Of a stretch of 64,000 nt of DNA, positions 45,177 through 49,276 are shown one piece after another; the stretch's first letter is position 1; the number at the start of each line of letters is the position of its first letter. Source of the stretch: Hyphomicrobium sp. (lineage in GTDB: Bacteria > Pseudomonadota > Alphaproteobacteria > Rhizobiales > Hyphomicrobiaceae); contig NZ_JAIETU010000013.1 in assembly GCF_019744875.1 (NCBI RefSeq), positions 62,001 through 126,000 of the forward strand, written 5' to 3'. The position numbers and the translations under genes were made by a program. Under the pieces are notes generated by a model, which saw only the letters and a program-made list of their open reading frames with translations, was not told where the DNA came from and made no database searches.

Positions 45177-46775
45177 ATGAGCGGAACAGACACGAACTTT
45201 CAATGGTTCATCGCGCGGGACGGCCGGCAGCACGGCCCAGTCTCGGACGTCGAGATTCGCAAGCTCGTTGAACTCGCTCACCTGAAACCGACCGACCTCG
45301 TCTGGCGGCAGGGCTTCTCCGACTGGCGCACGGCGGCATCTGTTTTTCCGATCCCCGAAGCGCAGGCAGCACCCGCGGCCCCGGCGCAGGCACCAAACCC
45401 TCAATCGCCCTCCCCGTCAGGTGCGGCACAGGCGCCCGTCTCCACCCAGGCTCCGGCCGGTCAGTCCCCATCCTCGGCATTTCAGGTTCCCGGCCCCCAA
45501 TCGACGGGCCCCGGATCAGGCCCCGGCCCGGGTTCTATGCAAGGCCTGAGCGCCGCGCACGGATCGAGCTTTGGATCCGCCCCGGGGCAGCCCTCCGGAC
45601 CCGCGGCCTCACAACCCTATTCCCCGTTCGGCCAGCCCGGCCCCGGACGAGCGCCCGGGCCTGACCCGTTGGCGACACGCCCGCTGGGCAATCCCATGCC
45701 GGGCAGCGGCCCCTATCCCGCCGGCGCCCCCGGCCCAGGAGGACCTGGGCAAGGAGGACCTGGACCGGGAGGACTGGGAGGCCCAGGACCAGGGCCCGGC
45801 CCGGCCGGCTCGCCCCGCATCACCACCGATATGCGCCGCCCCGACAAGTCGGCACAGTCCCGCGCCAAAGCAGCCCCGCGCAAAGGCCGCCGCATGGCGC
45901 TGGTCGCGACCGGCCTCATCGGCATGACGGCCGCGGGCGCCTGGCTGAGCAGCCAGTACAAGGACCAGATTATCGCTTACGTCCACGCACCCGGCAGCGA
46001 CACGGCTGACGGCGAAAAATCTGCGGACGGCTCCACCGCCACGGCCACTGCCGGCGTGATGGCCGACGCCACCAAGCCGTCGGAAACGGCGGCGACCCCG
46101 GTCGCGAACGTTGTGCCGGACGTCGGCCAGATGGACGCAAAACTGCAGGCCCGCCGCATGTGGGTTGCGATCAAGCAGCAGTTTCCGGACCGCTATCAGG
46201 AAATCGTGACCCAGTCGGCGCGCCTGACCGCCGAGCAGAAGCCGCAGCCGGAAATCACCGCGTATCTCATCGGCGAGATCGTGAAGATCCGCCGCGAGAA
46301 CGCGCAGCATGCCTTGGCCGCGCCGACGGCGCGCCACAAGGAGCTCGCGGCGGCATTCCTTGCCAACCTTCAGGAACTTTCTCGCGAAGGCGGCGACGGC
46401 TGTTACGAGTTCATCTCGCGCGGCGAAAACAGTGCCGCCATTCTTTCGCGCATCGACGACGCCTCACGCAGCACCGAGATCGAAACGCAACTCGTGACCA
46501 TCGTCTCCGCAATCGTCGAGGGACGCGCGCAGCCCGCGACGCATCCCTCGCCCGTCAAGACCGACTACGACGTGCTGGCCGGCGAACTCGGCCGCCTCGG
46601 CTGGACGCAGGCCGACATGCGGCTCTTCGCCAATCCGAAGGAGCTCGCTAAGGCGCCGCGCGAACGGGTCTGCAGCATGTTGAAGGACTGGTTTACCGCG
46701 CACCTCGCGATCCAGGACCCCTCGACGCAGGAGCGTCTCCTGTTCGAAACGCTGAAGCCTGTCGTCTCGGGCTAG
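45177..46775 (+). CDS. GYF_2-domain membrane protein with Pro/Gly-rich linker
   Basis: A 532-residue protein. Residues about 8-60 form a GYF_2 (DUF4339) domain (FIARDGRQHGPVSDVEIRKL, then TDLVWRQGFSDWRTA), a fold associated with protein-protein contacts in membrane proteins. A Pro/Gly/Ser/Gln-rich linker of about 165 residues follows, then a basic patch and one transmembrane helix (MALVATGLIGMTAAGAWLSS near 239-258). The C-terminal part (about 300-530) is helical and probably extracytoplasmic. Function unknown. Confidence 0.8.
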   Translation: MSGTDTNFQWFIARDGRQHGPVSDVEIRKLVELAHLKPTDLVWRQGFSDWRTAASVFPIPEAQAAPAAPAQAPNPQSPSPSGAAQAPVSTQAPAGQSPSSAFQVPGPQSTGPGSGPGPGSMQGLSAAHGSSFGSAPGQPSGPAASQPYSPFGQPGPGRAPGPDPLATRPLGNPMPGSGPYPAGAPGPGGPGQGGPGPGGLGGPGPGPGPAGSPRITTDMRRPDKSAQSRAKAAPRKGRRMALVATGLIGMTAAGAWLSSQYKDQIIAYVHAPGSDTADGEKSADGSTATATAGVMADATKPSETAATPVANVVPDVGQMDAKLQARRMWVAIKQQFPDRYQEIVTQSARLTAEQKPQPEITAYLIGEIVKIRRENAQHALAAPTARHKELAAAFLANLQELSREGGDGCYEFISRGENSAAILSRIDDASRSTEIETQLVTIVSAIVEGRAQPATHPSPVKTDYDVLAGELGRLGWTQADMRLFANPKELAKAPRERVCSMLKDWFTAHLAIQDPSTQERLLFETLKPVVSG

Positions 46776-46785
46776 CGATGAACCA

Positions 46786-46807
46786 GCCCGCCCGTTTAAG
46801 GGCGGGC
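46786..46807. terminator. Stem-loop between convergent GYF_2 and sugE genes
   Basis: An 8-bp perfect stem GCCCGCCC/GGGCGGGC with a 6-nt loop lies between the two stop codons. No T run is present on either side, so function as a terminator is likely only by position. Confidence 0.5.
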
Positions 46808-46815
46808 CGCTCGGC

Positions 46816-47136
46816 TCAGGGCGCCGATCCGATCTTCATCAACACCAATCCGGTTGCGATGAGCACAATCGCCGCGATCCGCGTGACGCTCGCGGCCTCG
46901 CCGAGTATCACGACGCCCACCAGGAACGCGCCGATCGCGCCGATCCCCGTCCAGATGGGATAGGCCGTTCCGAGCGGAAGCGTCTTCATGGAAATTGCGA
47001 GCAGCACGAAGCTGCAGATCATCGTGGTGATCGTGAGCACGCTCGGCCAAAGCCGCGTGAACCCATCCGACTGCTTCATGGCGAGCGACCACACGACTTC
47101 AAGGAAACTTGCGGCGAGAAGCGCAATCCAGGCCAT
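46816..47136 (-). CDS. sugE: SMR-family guanidinium exporter (Gdx/SugE)
   Basis: A 106-residue four-helix small multidrug resistance protein. It has the conserved first-helix glutamate in LLAASFLEVVWSLAMKQSDG, followed by helices through TLPLGTAYPIWTGIGAIGAF and VILGEAASVTRIAAIVLIAT. It fits the Gdx subtype, which exports guanidinium in exchange for protons. ATG 47136 has GGAGGG about 8 nt upstream. A guanidine-II riboswitch lies in its leader, strongly supporting the substrate. Confidence 0.93.
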   Translation of the reverse strand: MAWIALLAASFLEVVWSLAMKQSDGFTRLWPSVLTITTMICSFVLLAISMKTLPLGTAYPIWTGIGAIGAFLVGVVILGEAASVTRIAAIVLIATGLVLMKIGSAP

Positions 47137-47159
47137 AGCTCGGCCCTCCCGTGAATAGA

Positions 47160-47206
47160 CCAGGCCGTCCCAGCGGAATTGTCGGTGGATGCGAGGTCGT
47201 CCCCGC
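47160..47206 (-). promoter_or_regulatory. Guanidine-II (mini-ykkC) riboswitch
   Basis: Read on the minus strand, two small hairpins with the diagnostic ACGR tetraloops occur in tandem: P1 GCGGGG-ACGA-CCUCGC (47191-47206) and P2 CUGGG-ACGG-CCUGG (47160-47173), joined by a 17-nt linker. Both have C following the loop. The ribosome-binding GGAGGG lies about 10 nt after P2, so guanidine binding should free it. Guanidine-II riboswitches are known upstream of SMR guanidinium exporters, which is the downstream gene here. Confidence 0.88.
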
Positions 47207-47374
47207 AAGGCAAAATCTAGAGAGCTGCGCCCCGCCTTTCAAGCCGCATTCAGAGCGGGACCTGGCGGCCTTTGGTCGCCACCTGCGGGCCGGCGTGACA
47301 AGGCGCTCGCGAGGCGGTATGCGCAGGGGAACAATCACAGTGCCCGATAGCGACCGGCAGTCCGAAACACATCG

Positions 47375-49276
47375 ATGTTGCATATCAACGAACTCACCTA
47401 CCGCATCGAAGGCAAGCCAATCCTCGAGGATGCGACCGCCGCCATCCCCGAAGGCCACAAGGTCGGCCTGGTCGGTCGCAACGGCGCGGGCAAATCGACC
47501 CTCTTGAAGCTCATCGCGGGCGATCTTCACCCCGACCTCGGCGGCATCACCCTGCCGCGCGGAGCGCGCATCGGGCGCATCGCCCAGGAAGCGCCCGGCG
47601 GCGACGACAGCCTCATCGACTGGGTGCTCTCGACCGACCTCGAACGCGCGAGCCTGCTCGCCGAAGCGGAAACCGCCACCGACCCGCATCGCATCGCCGA
47701 AATCCAGATCCGCCTGACGGACATCCACGCCCACGCCGCGCCCGCGCGCGCCGCGAGCATCCTTGCGGGCCTCGGTTTCGACGAAGAAGCCCAGCGCCGC
47801 CCCTGCGCGTCGTTCTCAGGCGGCTGGCGCATGCGCGTCGCCCTCGGCTCGGTTCTGTTCCTTGAGCCCGACATCCTGCTCTTGGACGAGCCCACGAACT
47901 ATCTCGATCTCGAAGGCACGCTGTGGCTCGAAAGCTATCTGAGGACGTATCCGCATACCGTGCTGCTGGTGAGCCACGACCGCGATCTCCTGAACCGCGC
48001 CGCCGCCGCCATCCTCCATCTCGACAAGGGCAAGCTCACGCTCTACGCGGGCGGCTACGACGACTTCGAGGAAACGCGCCGCGCGAGGCAGCGCCTCGAG
48101 CTCAAGCTCAAGAAGAAGCAGGACGACGAGCGCCGCCGCATCCAGGCCTTCATCGATCGCTTCAAGGCCAAGGCGACGAAGGCCAAGCAGGCCCAGTCGC
48201 GCGTCAAGGCGCTCGCCAAGATGCAGCCCATCGCGTCCCACGTCGAAGACCGCGTTGCCCCCATCGCGCTGCCGAGCCCGGAGAAGGCGCTCGCAAGCCC
48301 GCTCCTGCGTCTGGAAAAAGCCTCCGCCGGATACGACCCGGCGACGCCGATCCTCACCGGCCTCGACCTGCGCATCGATCAGGACGACCGCATCGCGCTG
48401 CTGGGCGCGAACGGCAACGGCAAATCGACCTTCGCCAAGCTGATCGGCGGCAAGCTGGCCCCGCTCACGGGGAATGTGTATGGCGCCAACCGCGTCACGG
48501 TCGGCTACTTCGCCCAGCACCAGCTCGACGAACTGAACCCGCTCGCAACCCCGTTCGACTACGTCGTCAAACTGATGCCCGAGGCAACCGAAGCGCAGCG
48601 CCGCACGAAGCTCGGCACCTGGGGCTTCGGCGCCGACAAGGCCGACACGAAATGCTCGAACCTGTCCGGCGGCGAGAAAGCGCGTCTGCTGTTGGCGCTG
48701 ACCGCGTTTCACGCCCCGCATCTTCTGATCCTCGACGAGCCGACCAACCATCTCGACGTCGACAGCCGCGAAGCGCTCATTCACGCCATCGCGGAATACG
48801 AGGGCGCGGTCATCCTGATCAGCCATGACCGCCATCTCGTCGAGGCGACGGCCGATCGCCTCTGGCTGGTCGCCGGCGGCACGGTGCGCTCCTACGACGG
48901 CGACATGGAAAGCTACCGCACGGAGCTGCTTCAGACGCGCGCGCCGAAGGCCGAGCGCCGCAGCACGGGCGATGCGAACACGGAAGCGCGCGCGAGCCGT
49001 GCCGATCAGCGCAAGGCGGCAGCCGACAGGCGCGCCGAACTCGCACCTCTCAAGAAGGCCATGCAGACCGCGGAGAAGGCAGTCGAGAAGCTTTCCGCCG
49101 AGCTAGCCAAGTTGGATGCGCAGCTCGCCGCACCCGATCTCTATGCGGATGCCGCAAAAGCAAGCCGCATCTCGCAGGAGCGCGGACAGACCGCAAAGCG
49201 CCTCGGCGAAGCGGAAGAAGCCTGGCTCGCCGCAACGGGCGCCTACGAAGACGCCGAACAGGACGTCACCGCCTGA
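47375..49276 (+). CDS. ABC-F family ATPase
   Basis: A 633-residue cytosolic protein with two ABC ATPase domains and no membrane segments. Walker A motifs are VGRNGAGKSTLLK and LGANGNGKSTFAK; signatures are FSGGWRMRVAL and LSGGEKARLLL; Walker B blocks are DILLLDEPTNYLD and LLILDEPTNHLD. The interdomain arm is highly charged (LKLKKKQDDERRRIQAFIDR), and a C-terminal coiled coil follows. This architecture is that of ABC-F translation factors such as YheS/Uup. Whether it acts in ribosome rescue or antibiotic protection is not known. Confidence 0.94.
   Translation: MLHINELTYRIEGKPILEDATAAIPEGHKVGLVGRNGAGKSTLLKLIAGDLHPDLGGITLPRGARIGRIAQEAPGGDDSLIDWVLSTDLERASLLAEAETATDPHRIAEIQIRLTDIHAHAAPARAASILAGLGFDEEAQRRPCASFSGGWRMRVALGSVLFLEPDILLLDEPTNYLDLEGTLWLESYLRTYPHTVLLVSHDRDLLNRAAAAILHLDKGKLTLYAGGYDDFEETRRARQRLELKLKKKQDDERRRIQAFIDRFKAKATKAKQAQSRVKALAKMQPIASHVEDRVAPIALPSPEKALASPLLRLEKASAGYDPATPILTGLDLRIDQDDRIALLGANGNGKSTFAKLIGGKLAPLTGNVYGANRVTVGYFAQHQLDELNPLATPFDYVVKLMPEATEAQRRTKLGTWGFGADKADTKCSNLSGGEKARLLLALTAFHAPHLLILDEPTNHLDVDSREALIHAIAEYEGAVILISHDRHLVEATADRLWLVAGGTVRSYDGDMESYRTELLQTRAPKAERRSTGDANTEARASRADQRKAAADRRAELAPLKKAMQTAEKAVEKLSAELAKLDAQLAAPDLYADAAKASRISQERGQTAKRLGEAEEAWLAATGAYEDAEQDVTA

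Follow-up and report, generated by a model that had tools for sequence, protein, structure and literature searches.

Guanidine-II (mini-ykkC) riboswitches (Rfam RF01068) consist of two tandem short hairpins, P1 and P2, whose ACGR loops are each followed by C, and they adjoin the ribosome-binding sites of genes for guanidinium exporters or for enzymes that break guanidine down. Ligand binding by the class is cooperative and turns expression up. In the known structures (PMC5486947) guanidine lies against the G of ACG, between backbone phosphates at a tight turn, and stacks on the closing-pair G, and the two loops contact each other through pairing of their C and G. The linker between the hairpins ranges from 7 to 40 nt (PMC7544219), and in the E. 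coli switch a putative anti-Shine-Dalgarno has been placed within it (PMC9094411). The guanidine-III and guanidine-IV classes are described in the literature as sharing the ligand and having similar target genes, but their folds differ. Among the exporters, Gdx-Clo holds the guanidinyl group and its glutamate with residues E13, W16, S42, Y59 and W62, and W16 is conserved in Gdx proteins but is Gly or Ala in the Qac types (PMC7695847).

The window analysed here is a 64-kb stretch of a 4.52-Mb Hyphomicrobium genome, and its minus strand reads at 47207-47160 as two tandem short hairpins upstream of an SMR gene. RF01068 matches at 47208-47160 with 34.4 bits against a cut-off of 32 (E 0.0038 for the whole window; 6.4e-5 in a one-family search of the whole genome), and this is the sole match in the window among 4227 Rfam families at curated thresholds, with none to guanidine-III or guanidine-IV. 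P1 (47190-47207, minus strand) has 7 bp, one of them G-U, and a loop ACGA (47200-47197) followed by C; the linker (47174-47189) is 16 nt long, within the published range, and is not predicted to form a hairpin of its own; and P2 (47160-47173) has five pairs, two of them G-U, with a loop ACGG (47168-47165), again followed by C. A Shine-Dalgarno sequence recognised by eye, GGGAGGG (47144-47150), lies 9 nt past P2, and the gene starts 23 nt downstream of P2. There is thus no essential difference from the described class, and as judged by its sequence the element is a real guanidine-II riboswitch of the ordinary kind, situated in front of a gene for a Gdx-type exporter. The earlier note had proposed such a switch in the SMR leader, with these two loops and a second hairpin about 10 nt before the ribosome-binding site, to be checked with the Rfam covariance model, and all of this is borne out; its interval of 47137-47210 does contain the real element (47160-47208), but extends to the last base of the leader, since the gene starts at 47136. 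A sigma-70-like promoter, TTGAAA-17-TAGATT (47214-47242, minus strand), with 9 of 12 matches where 0.1 such sites are expected in shuffles, is the only one found in 46700-47400; transcription would then start near the foot of P1 (about 47207), and the leader would be hardly longer than the switch itself.

The gene, gdx (46816-47136, minus strand, with an ATG start at 47136), encodes a 106-aa protein of the SMR family (PF00893, 98.7 bits against a cut-off of 23.7). Among solved structures, entries of the Gdx-Clo type come closest (98.8 and 98.7 bits), with EmrE at 58 bits; Gdx-Clo (PDB 6wk5) matches over its full length with the substrate-site residues kept, and its row in our alignment is 49% identical to the window protein. 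All of E13, W16, S42, Y59 and W62 are present and are invariant in a seven-row alignment that includes Gdx-Clo. The protein does not reach the NCBIfam SugE equivalog cut-off (113.9 against 126 bits), so that the Gdx-type label rests on these residues and on the nearest structure; by its own sequence it is of the Gdx (sugE) type and a predicted guanidinium exporter, and the view that the SMR protein would be generic but for its riboswitch is not upheld. The gene stands alone, the frame below (45177-46775) being convergent and the frame above (47375-49276), which by eye encodes an ABC-F type ATPase, divergent.

The leaders of related exporter genes depart from the consensus in P1. Seven other genomes of the same genus were searched, and six contain a close homologue of the exporter (51-65% identity), the best match in the seventh (G003) being at 39%. 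RF01068 finds none of these six leaders at E 0.001. All six nevertheless have a P2 with an ACGR loop and a P1 with an ACG-containing loop, the P1 loops being CCACGA in four, CCACGT in one and CACGA in one. The expectation that close relatives would keep both ACGR loops is thus satisfied for P2 in every case, but a plain ACGR tetraloop is present in P1 in none of the six, the ACG being set in an enlarged loop.

We extended the comparison to 121 distinct leaders of exporter homologues scoring at least 90 bits, a set fetched by protein similarity or RNA searches and not a random sample. Script labels assigned a P1 tetraloop to 44, a hexaloop to 39 and a pentaloop to 11, with six having P2 but no recognised P1 and 21 lacking P2; after correction by eye there are about 42 hexaloops (CMACGN) and about 10 pentaloops. 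The corrections concern L061 and L029, which are hexaloops by eye, L208, a bulged hexaloop that was missed, and L045 and L229, two of the six leaders without P1, which are tetraloops whose stems are short or mismatched; in L043 another hairpin was mistaken for P1 with no change of class, L179 can be read as a tetra- or pentaloop, and L213 and L216 are RF01068 matches labelled as lacking P2 by a distance rule. The enlarged P1 loops seen in the relatives include CCACGN, CAACGN, AACGN and CACGA. All named holders of hexaloops are Alphaproteobacteria, and pentaloops occur also in Stenotrophomonas, Massilia and Undibacterium. With kinship uncorrected, the P2 loop is ACGG in all 31 leaders whose hexaloop ends in U, and is ACGG in four and ACGA in four of the other eight hexaloop leaders. 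A single invention of the enlarged loop was considered and rejected, as the exporter tree requires 19 changes of the hexaloop label, at least five of them forced by well-supported branches; this tree is built from 106 columns for 121 rows, carries three wrong labels and leaves room for gene transfer. Three individual loci merit mention. In L264 (1501-1554) both loops of a gdx leader are enlarged, to TAACGA in P1 and AACGG in P2. The Massilia locus L033 contains tandem gdx copies (2039-2344 and 2501-2812), the second with an enlarged-loop switch and the first with a degenerate P2 loop. Lastly, the gdx protein of L012, a record titled Bacillus subtilis, groups with those of Stenotrophomonas, and its SRP RNA scores as in a Stenotrophomonas record; this is probably a mislabelled or contaminated assembly.

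Alignment of 37 hexaloop leaders shows two blocks, GAGG-CMACGN-CCTC and CCGGG-ACGR-CCCGG, that are almost invariant beside variable flanks. Standard pairs are present in all 333 cells of the paired columns, leaving little variation for a covariation test: four of the five P2 pairs never vary, around an ACGR loop, and neither do three of the four P1 pairs. The remaining P1 pair varies on both sides, which 105 of 500 shuffles also reach, and does so in two sequences, which two of 500 reach. The covariation score is likewise reached by two of 500 shuffles, and a shift of the partners by +3 columns raises it from 0.045 to 0.055 with only 51% of cells paired. Because these covariation results are weak, we argue for P1 from its invariance where the flanks vary and from target specificity, and we regard it as nearly certain that the enlarged-loop element is real and conserved. 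It agrees with the RF01068 consensus in the P2 ACGR tetraloop, in position and in target gene, but departs from it in the P1 loop and in score: at the Rfam cut-off the public model finds none of 20 enlarged-loop loci (18 hexaloop, two pentaloop), and with permissive settings (E up to 5) it gives 22-30 bits in seven of the 16 loci given.

Hexaloop forms usually carry a third hairpin between P1 and P2. Of 58 unique linkers, 56 have this hairpin beginning 0-2 nt after P1, and in 51 its end lies 7-8 nt from P2. The linker folding energy has a mean z of -1.37, with 54 linkers under 0 and 38 under -1; the corresponding mean is -0.43 among 44 leaders labelled as tetraloops, of which two were mislabelled or misread, and -0.52 among the 10 with a pentaloop. 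Perfect 6-bp linker arms are present in 30 of 57 real linkers, compared to a mean of 11.1 and at most 19 in 500 swaps of arms between leaders. A looser count, of linkers with a hairpin of at least 4 bp, does not discriminate (36 observed against 33.4 expected in 39 hexaloop leaders). Both the enlarged loop and the linker hairpin are absent from the window leader, whose score with a model of the enlarged-loop form (R1) is 11.2 bits.

The window copy is one of three guanidine-II copies in its genome. The second lies between ABC transporter genes, whose substrate-binding protein is named 'putative urea ABC transporter' by NCBIfam, and genes for UAAP1, UAAP2 and a 1208-aa carboxylase; NCBIfam names the last a urea carboxylase, and by eye an allophanate hydrolase-like gene follows. 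The UAAP proteins are, we presume, carboxyguanidine deiminases, and the UAAP1/UAAP2/urea-type carboxylase genes likely form a guanidine-breakdown operon. The statement that this organism meets guanidine gains support from the presence of a guanidine-II copy before that operon.

The third copy (G000:C1:845527-845568) is followed by two small reading frames of 35 and 95 aa (845593-845991), switch and frames together lying at L002 1501-1965. Relatives of the 95-aa protein occur in 15 of 102 genomes of the family, and in seven of 28 matched places they stand behind guanidine-II copies (also L155, L165, L197, L199, L205 and L207). The form of the switch is canonical in the window's genome, G055 and G062, the latter two copies falling just below the Rfam cut-off, and hexaloop in G056, G060 and G061, with the small gene also found behind gdx in G060. 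The protein matches no Pfam or NCBIfam family, a single weak Pfam row being below cut-off, and the gene is likely a new guanidine-related gene. Immediately upstream of the third copy are a formaldehyde-activating-enzyme-like gene and a hairpin resembling a terminator (L002 751-1500; both by eye); methylguanidine breakdown releases formaldehyde (PMC12508155), and this gene and the third-copy switch likely belong to separate transcripts.

Running R1 over whole genomes regardless of genes shows how the two forms are distributed. In the family it gives 13 matches in 12 of 102 genomes (12 hexaloop, one pentaloop), 10 of them directly before gdx and three before the small-gene family of the third copy. 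In the order there are 37 matches in 37 of 397 genomes; of the 30 examined as loci 27 are before gdx, one before the small gene and two before a PACE-type exporter. All 24 order matches of at least 43.5 bits are hexaloops (with a stem of 2 bp in L259); gdx follows 23 of them and the small gene one, and the weaker matches include ordinary tetraloops. In the class R1 matches five of 289 genomes and RF01068 28 of the same 289, such that the enlarged-loop form is class-wide the rarer one; four of these five R1 matches are followed by gdx or by a frame resembling it (one appears to be broken, and one match has a tetraloop), and the fifth is a tetraloop before a PACE-type gene. Conversely, among the first-fetched RF01068 loci of the family (26 of 56 matches) 20 are before UAAP1 and six before gdx, and the canonical form therefore serves gdx too. 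Four genomes (G004, G005, G006 and G007) each have a canonical form before UAAP1 and a hexaloop form before gdx, and no hexaloop match stands before UAAP1 among the examined family, order and class matches.

Two further observations arose from these searches. Guanidine-II-like tetraloop switches stand directly before PACE-type exporters in L212, L262 and L263 (1501 onward); the downstream protein of L262, the one scanned, matches PF05232 and NCBIfam PACE_transport, and a text search found no paper on PACE exporters with guanidine riboswitches. In addition, a canonical copy (L009, G007:C12:40935-40981) has a ribosome-binding-site sequence that by eye resembles those of some gdx leaders, and the region behind it matches none of the five query proteins, gdx included.

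How the window switch would act can be outlined from the known structures and from folding. We infer that guanidinium binds the ACGA loop of P1 and the ACGG loop of P2 and locks the two hairpins together through a kissing contact between the loops. The leader's predicted minimum-energy fold has P1 intact, P2 unformed and the ribosome-binding site masked: the P2 loop and 3' arm, CGGCCU (47167-47162), would pair in the ligand-free state with GGGCCG (47146-47141), which overlaps the Shine-Dalgarno sequence. Ligand-held P2 would free the site and the exporter would be made; this predicted masking makes a translational ON switch likely. As a whole, the leader does not fold better than its shuffles (z 0.05), so that the fold prediction by itself proves little, and we compared 100 leaders with a P2 by the complementarity of the P2 3' arm and the next bases to the ribosome-binding region. 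This averages 9.51 with a leader's own region and 8.02 with those of other leaders, the highest of 200 permutations being 8.47, in a test that leaves kinship uncorrected. By class the own and cross values are 11.24 against 8.99 for hexaloops, 10.67 against 9.38 for pentaloops, and 7.64 against 7.09 for tetraloops, the class of the window; the masking-helix signal is strong in enlarged-loop leaders and weak in the window's class. Because loop bases are left out of the test, the window's best helix in it is of another, weaker register than CGGCCU/GGGCCG. From the sequence, the fold match, the position, the exporter type and the arrangement conserved in relatives, we consider it highly probable that a canonical guanidine-II riboswitch precedes the lone gdx gene; it would likely act by a choice between P2 and the masking helix.

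The part of this reading most open to challenge is the platform, as the aptamer could be real and the anti-Shine-Dalgarno lie instead in the 3' arm of P1 or in the linker. The published E. coli model with its linker element offers a parallel, and the CCUC of the P1 arm (47195-47192; CCTC in the DNA, 5' to 3') is able to form 4 bp with GAGG in the ribosome-binding site. However, across 94 leaders the P1 arm is no more complementary to its own ribosome-binding region than to permuted partners (7.73 against 7.82), on which ground the P1 arm was rejected as anti-Shine-Dalgarno; by eye the window linker lacks an anti-Shine-Dalgarno run; and the predicted fold masks the site with P2, in the loop and 3' arm, and not with the P1 arm or the linker. 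A different platform is accordingly unlikely, albeit the least unlikely of the alternatives. It is appreciably less probable that the natural ligand is a substituted guanidine such as methylguanidine, although methyl- and aminoguanidine are ligands of the class as well (PMC5486947) and one switch of class II is reported not to discriminate guanidine from methylguanidine (PMC12508155); both loops in the window are canonical, and the genome carries a further copy before a UAAP/carboxylase operon, a kind tied in the literature to guanidine itself.

Two explanations dispense with a ligand altogether. Elements of this small and repetitive kind were once suggested to bind protein (PMC2864571), and the hairpins might be a protein-binding site or a plain structural leader; but guanidine binding is established for the class (PMC5486947) and the window loops fit its consensus, making this very improbable. 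That two hairpins arose by chance in GC-rich DNA draws some encouragement from a score just 2.4 bits over the Rfam cut-off, a doubt that is removed by the comparison with relatives rather than by the score alone: strand, distance and gene are all right, the 64 kb contain no second match, and homologues in many genera are preceded by the same arrangement. On the Rfam score and the comparison together we rejected chance, whose probability we take to be close to nil.

For the enlarged-loop form a somewhat different behaviour can be envisaged. The CMACGN loop has two extra bases separating the ACG from the closing G-C pair, and because they fall at the tight turn and the stacking base of the pocket, P1's own pocket may be lost or changed, with kissing to P2 retained; a hexaloop ending in U could add a third kissing pair, between this U and the A of the P2 loop. 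P1 would then be mainly a kissing partner, and the sensor, with one site and less cooperativity, would be tuned to the exporter in cells whose UAAP/carboxylase operon keeps the two-site canonical form. The idea of a one-site form is not without precedent, since variant hairpins in vertebrate RNAs have been speculated to partner a consensus hairpin and so form a single pocket (2025, PMC12335538). In searches of paper text, as distinct from figures such as that paper's updated consensus of 1977 bacterial sequences, we found no description of the enlarged-loop form, and no literature on guanidine-II with a hexaloop or on a guanidine riboswitch in Hyphomicrobium. We tentatively propose, with slightly more doubt than confidence, that in many Alphaproteobacteria, the window's genus among them, gdx is under a previously unreported three-hairpin guanidine-II form with one-site behaviour.

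For the organism, the window switch gives the SMR gene a substrate, and in this genome a single riboswitch class covers both the export of guanidine and an operon that likely breaks it down. For the riboswitch family, the enlarged-loop form is present in many alphaproteobacterial genera and was missed by the cut-off of the public model wherever tried. It breaks the two-fold symmetry that underlies the present binding model and so provides a natural experiment on the need for two ligand sites, and the four genomes that pair both forms, one on export and the other on the carboxylase operon, make differing thresholds directly testable.
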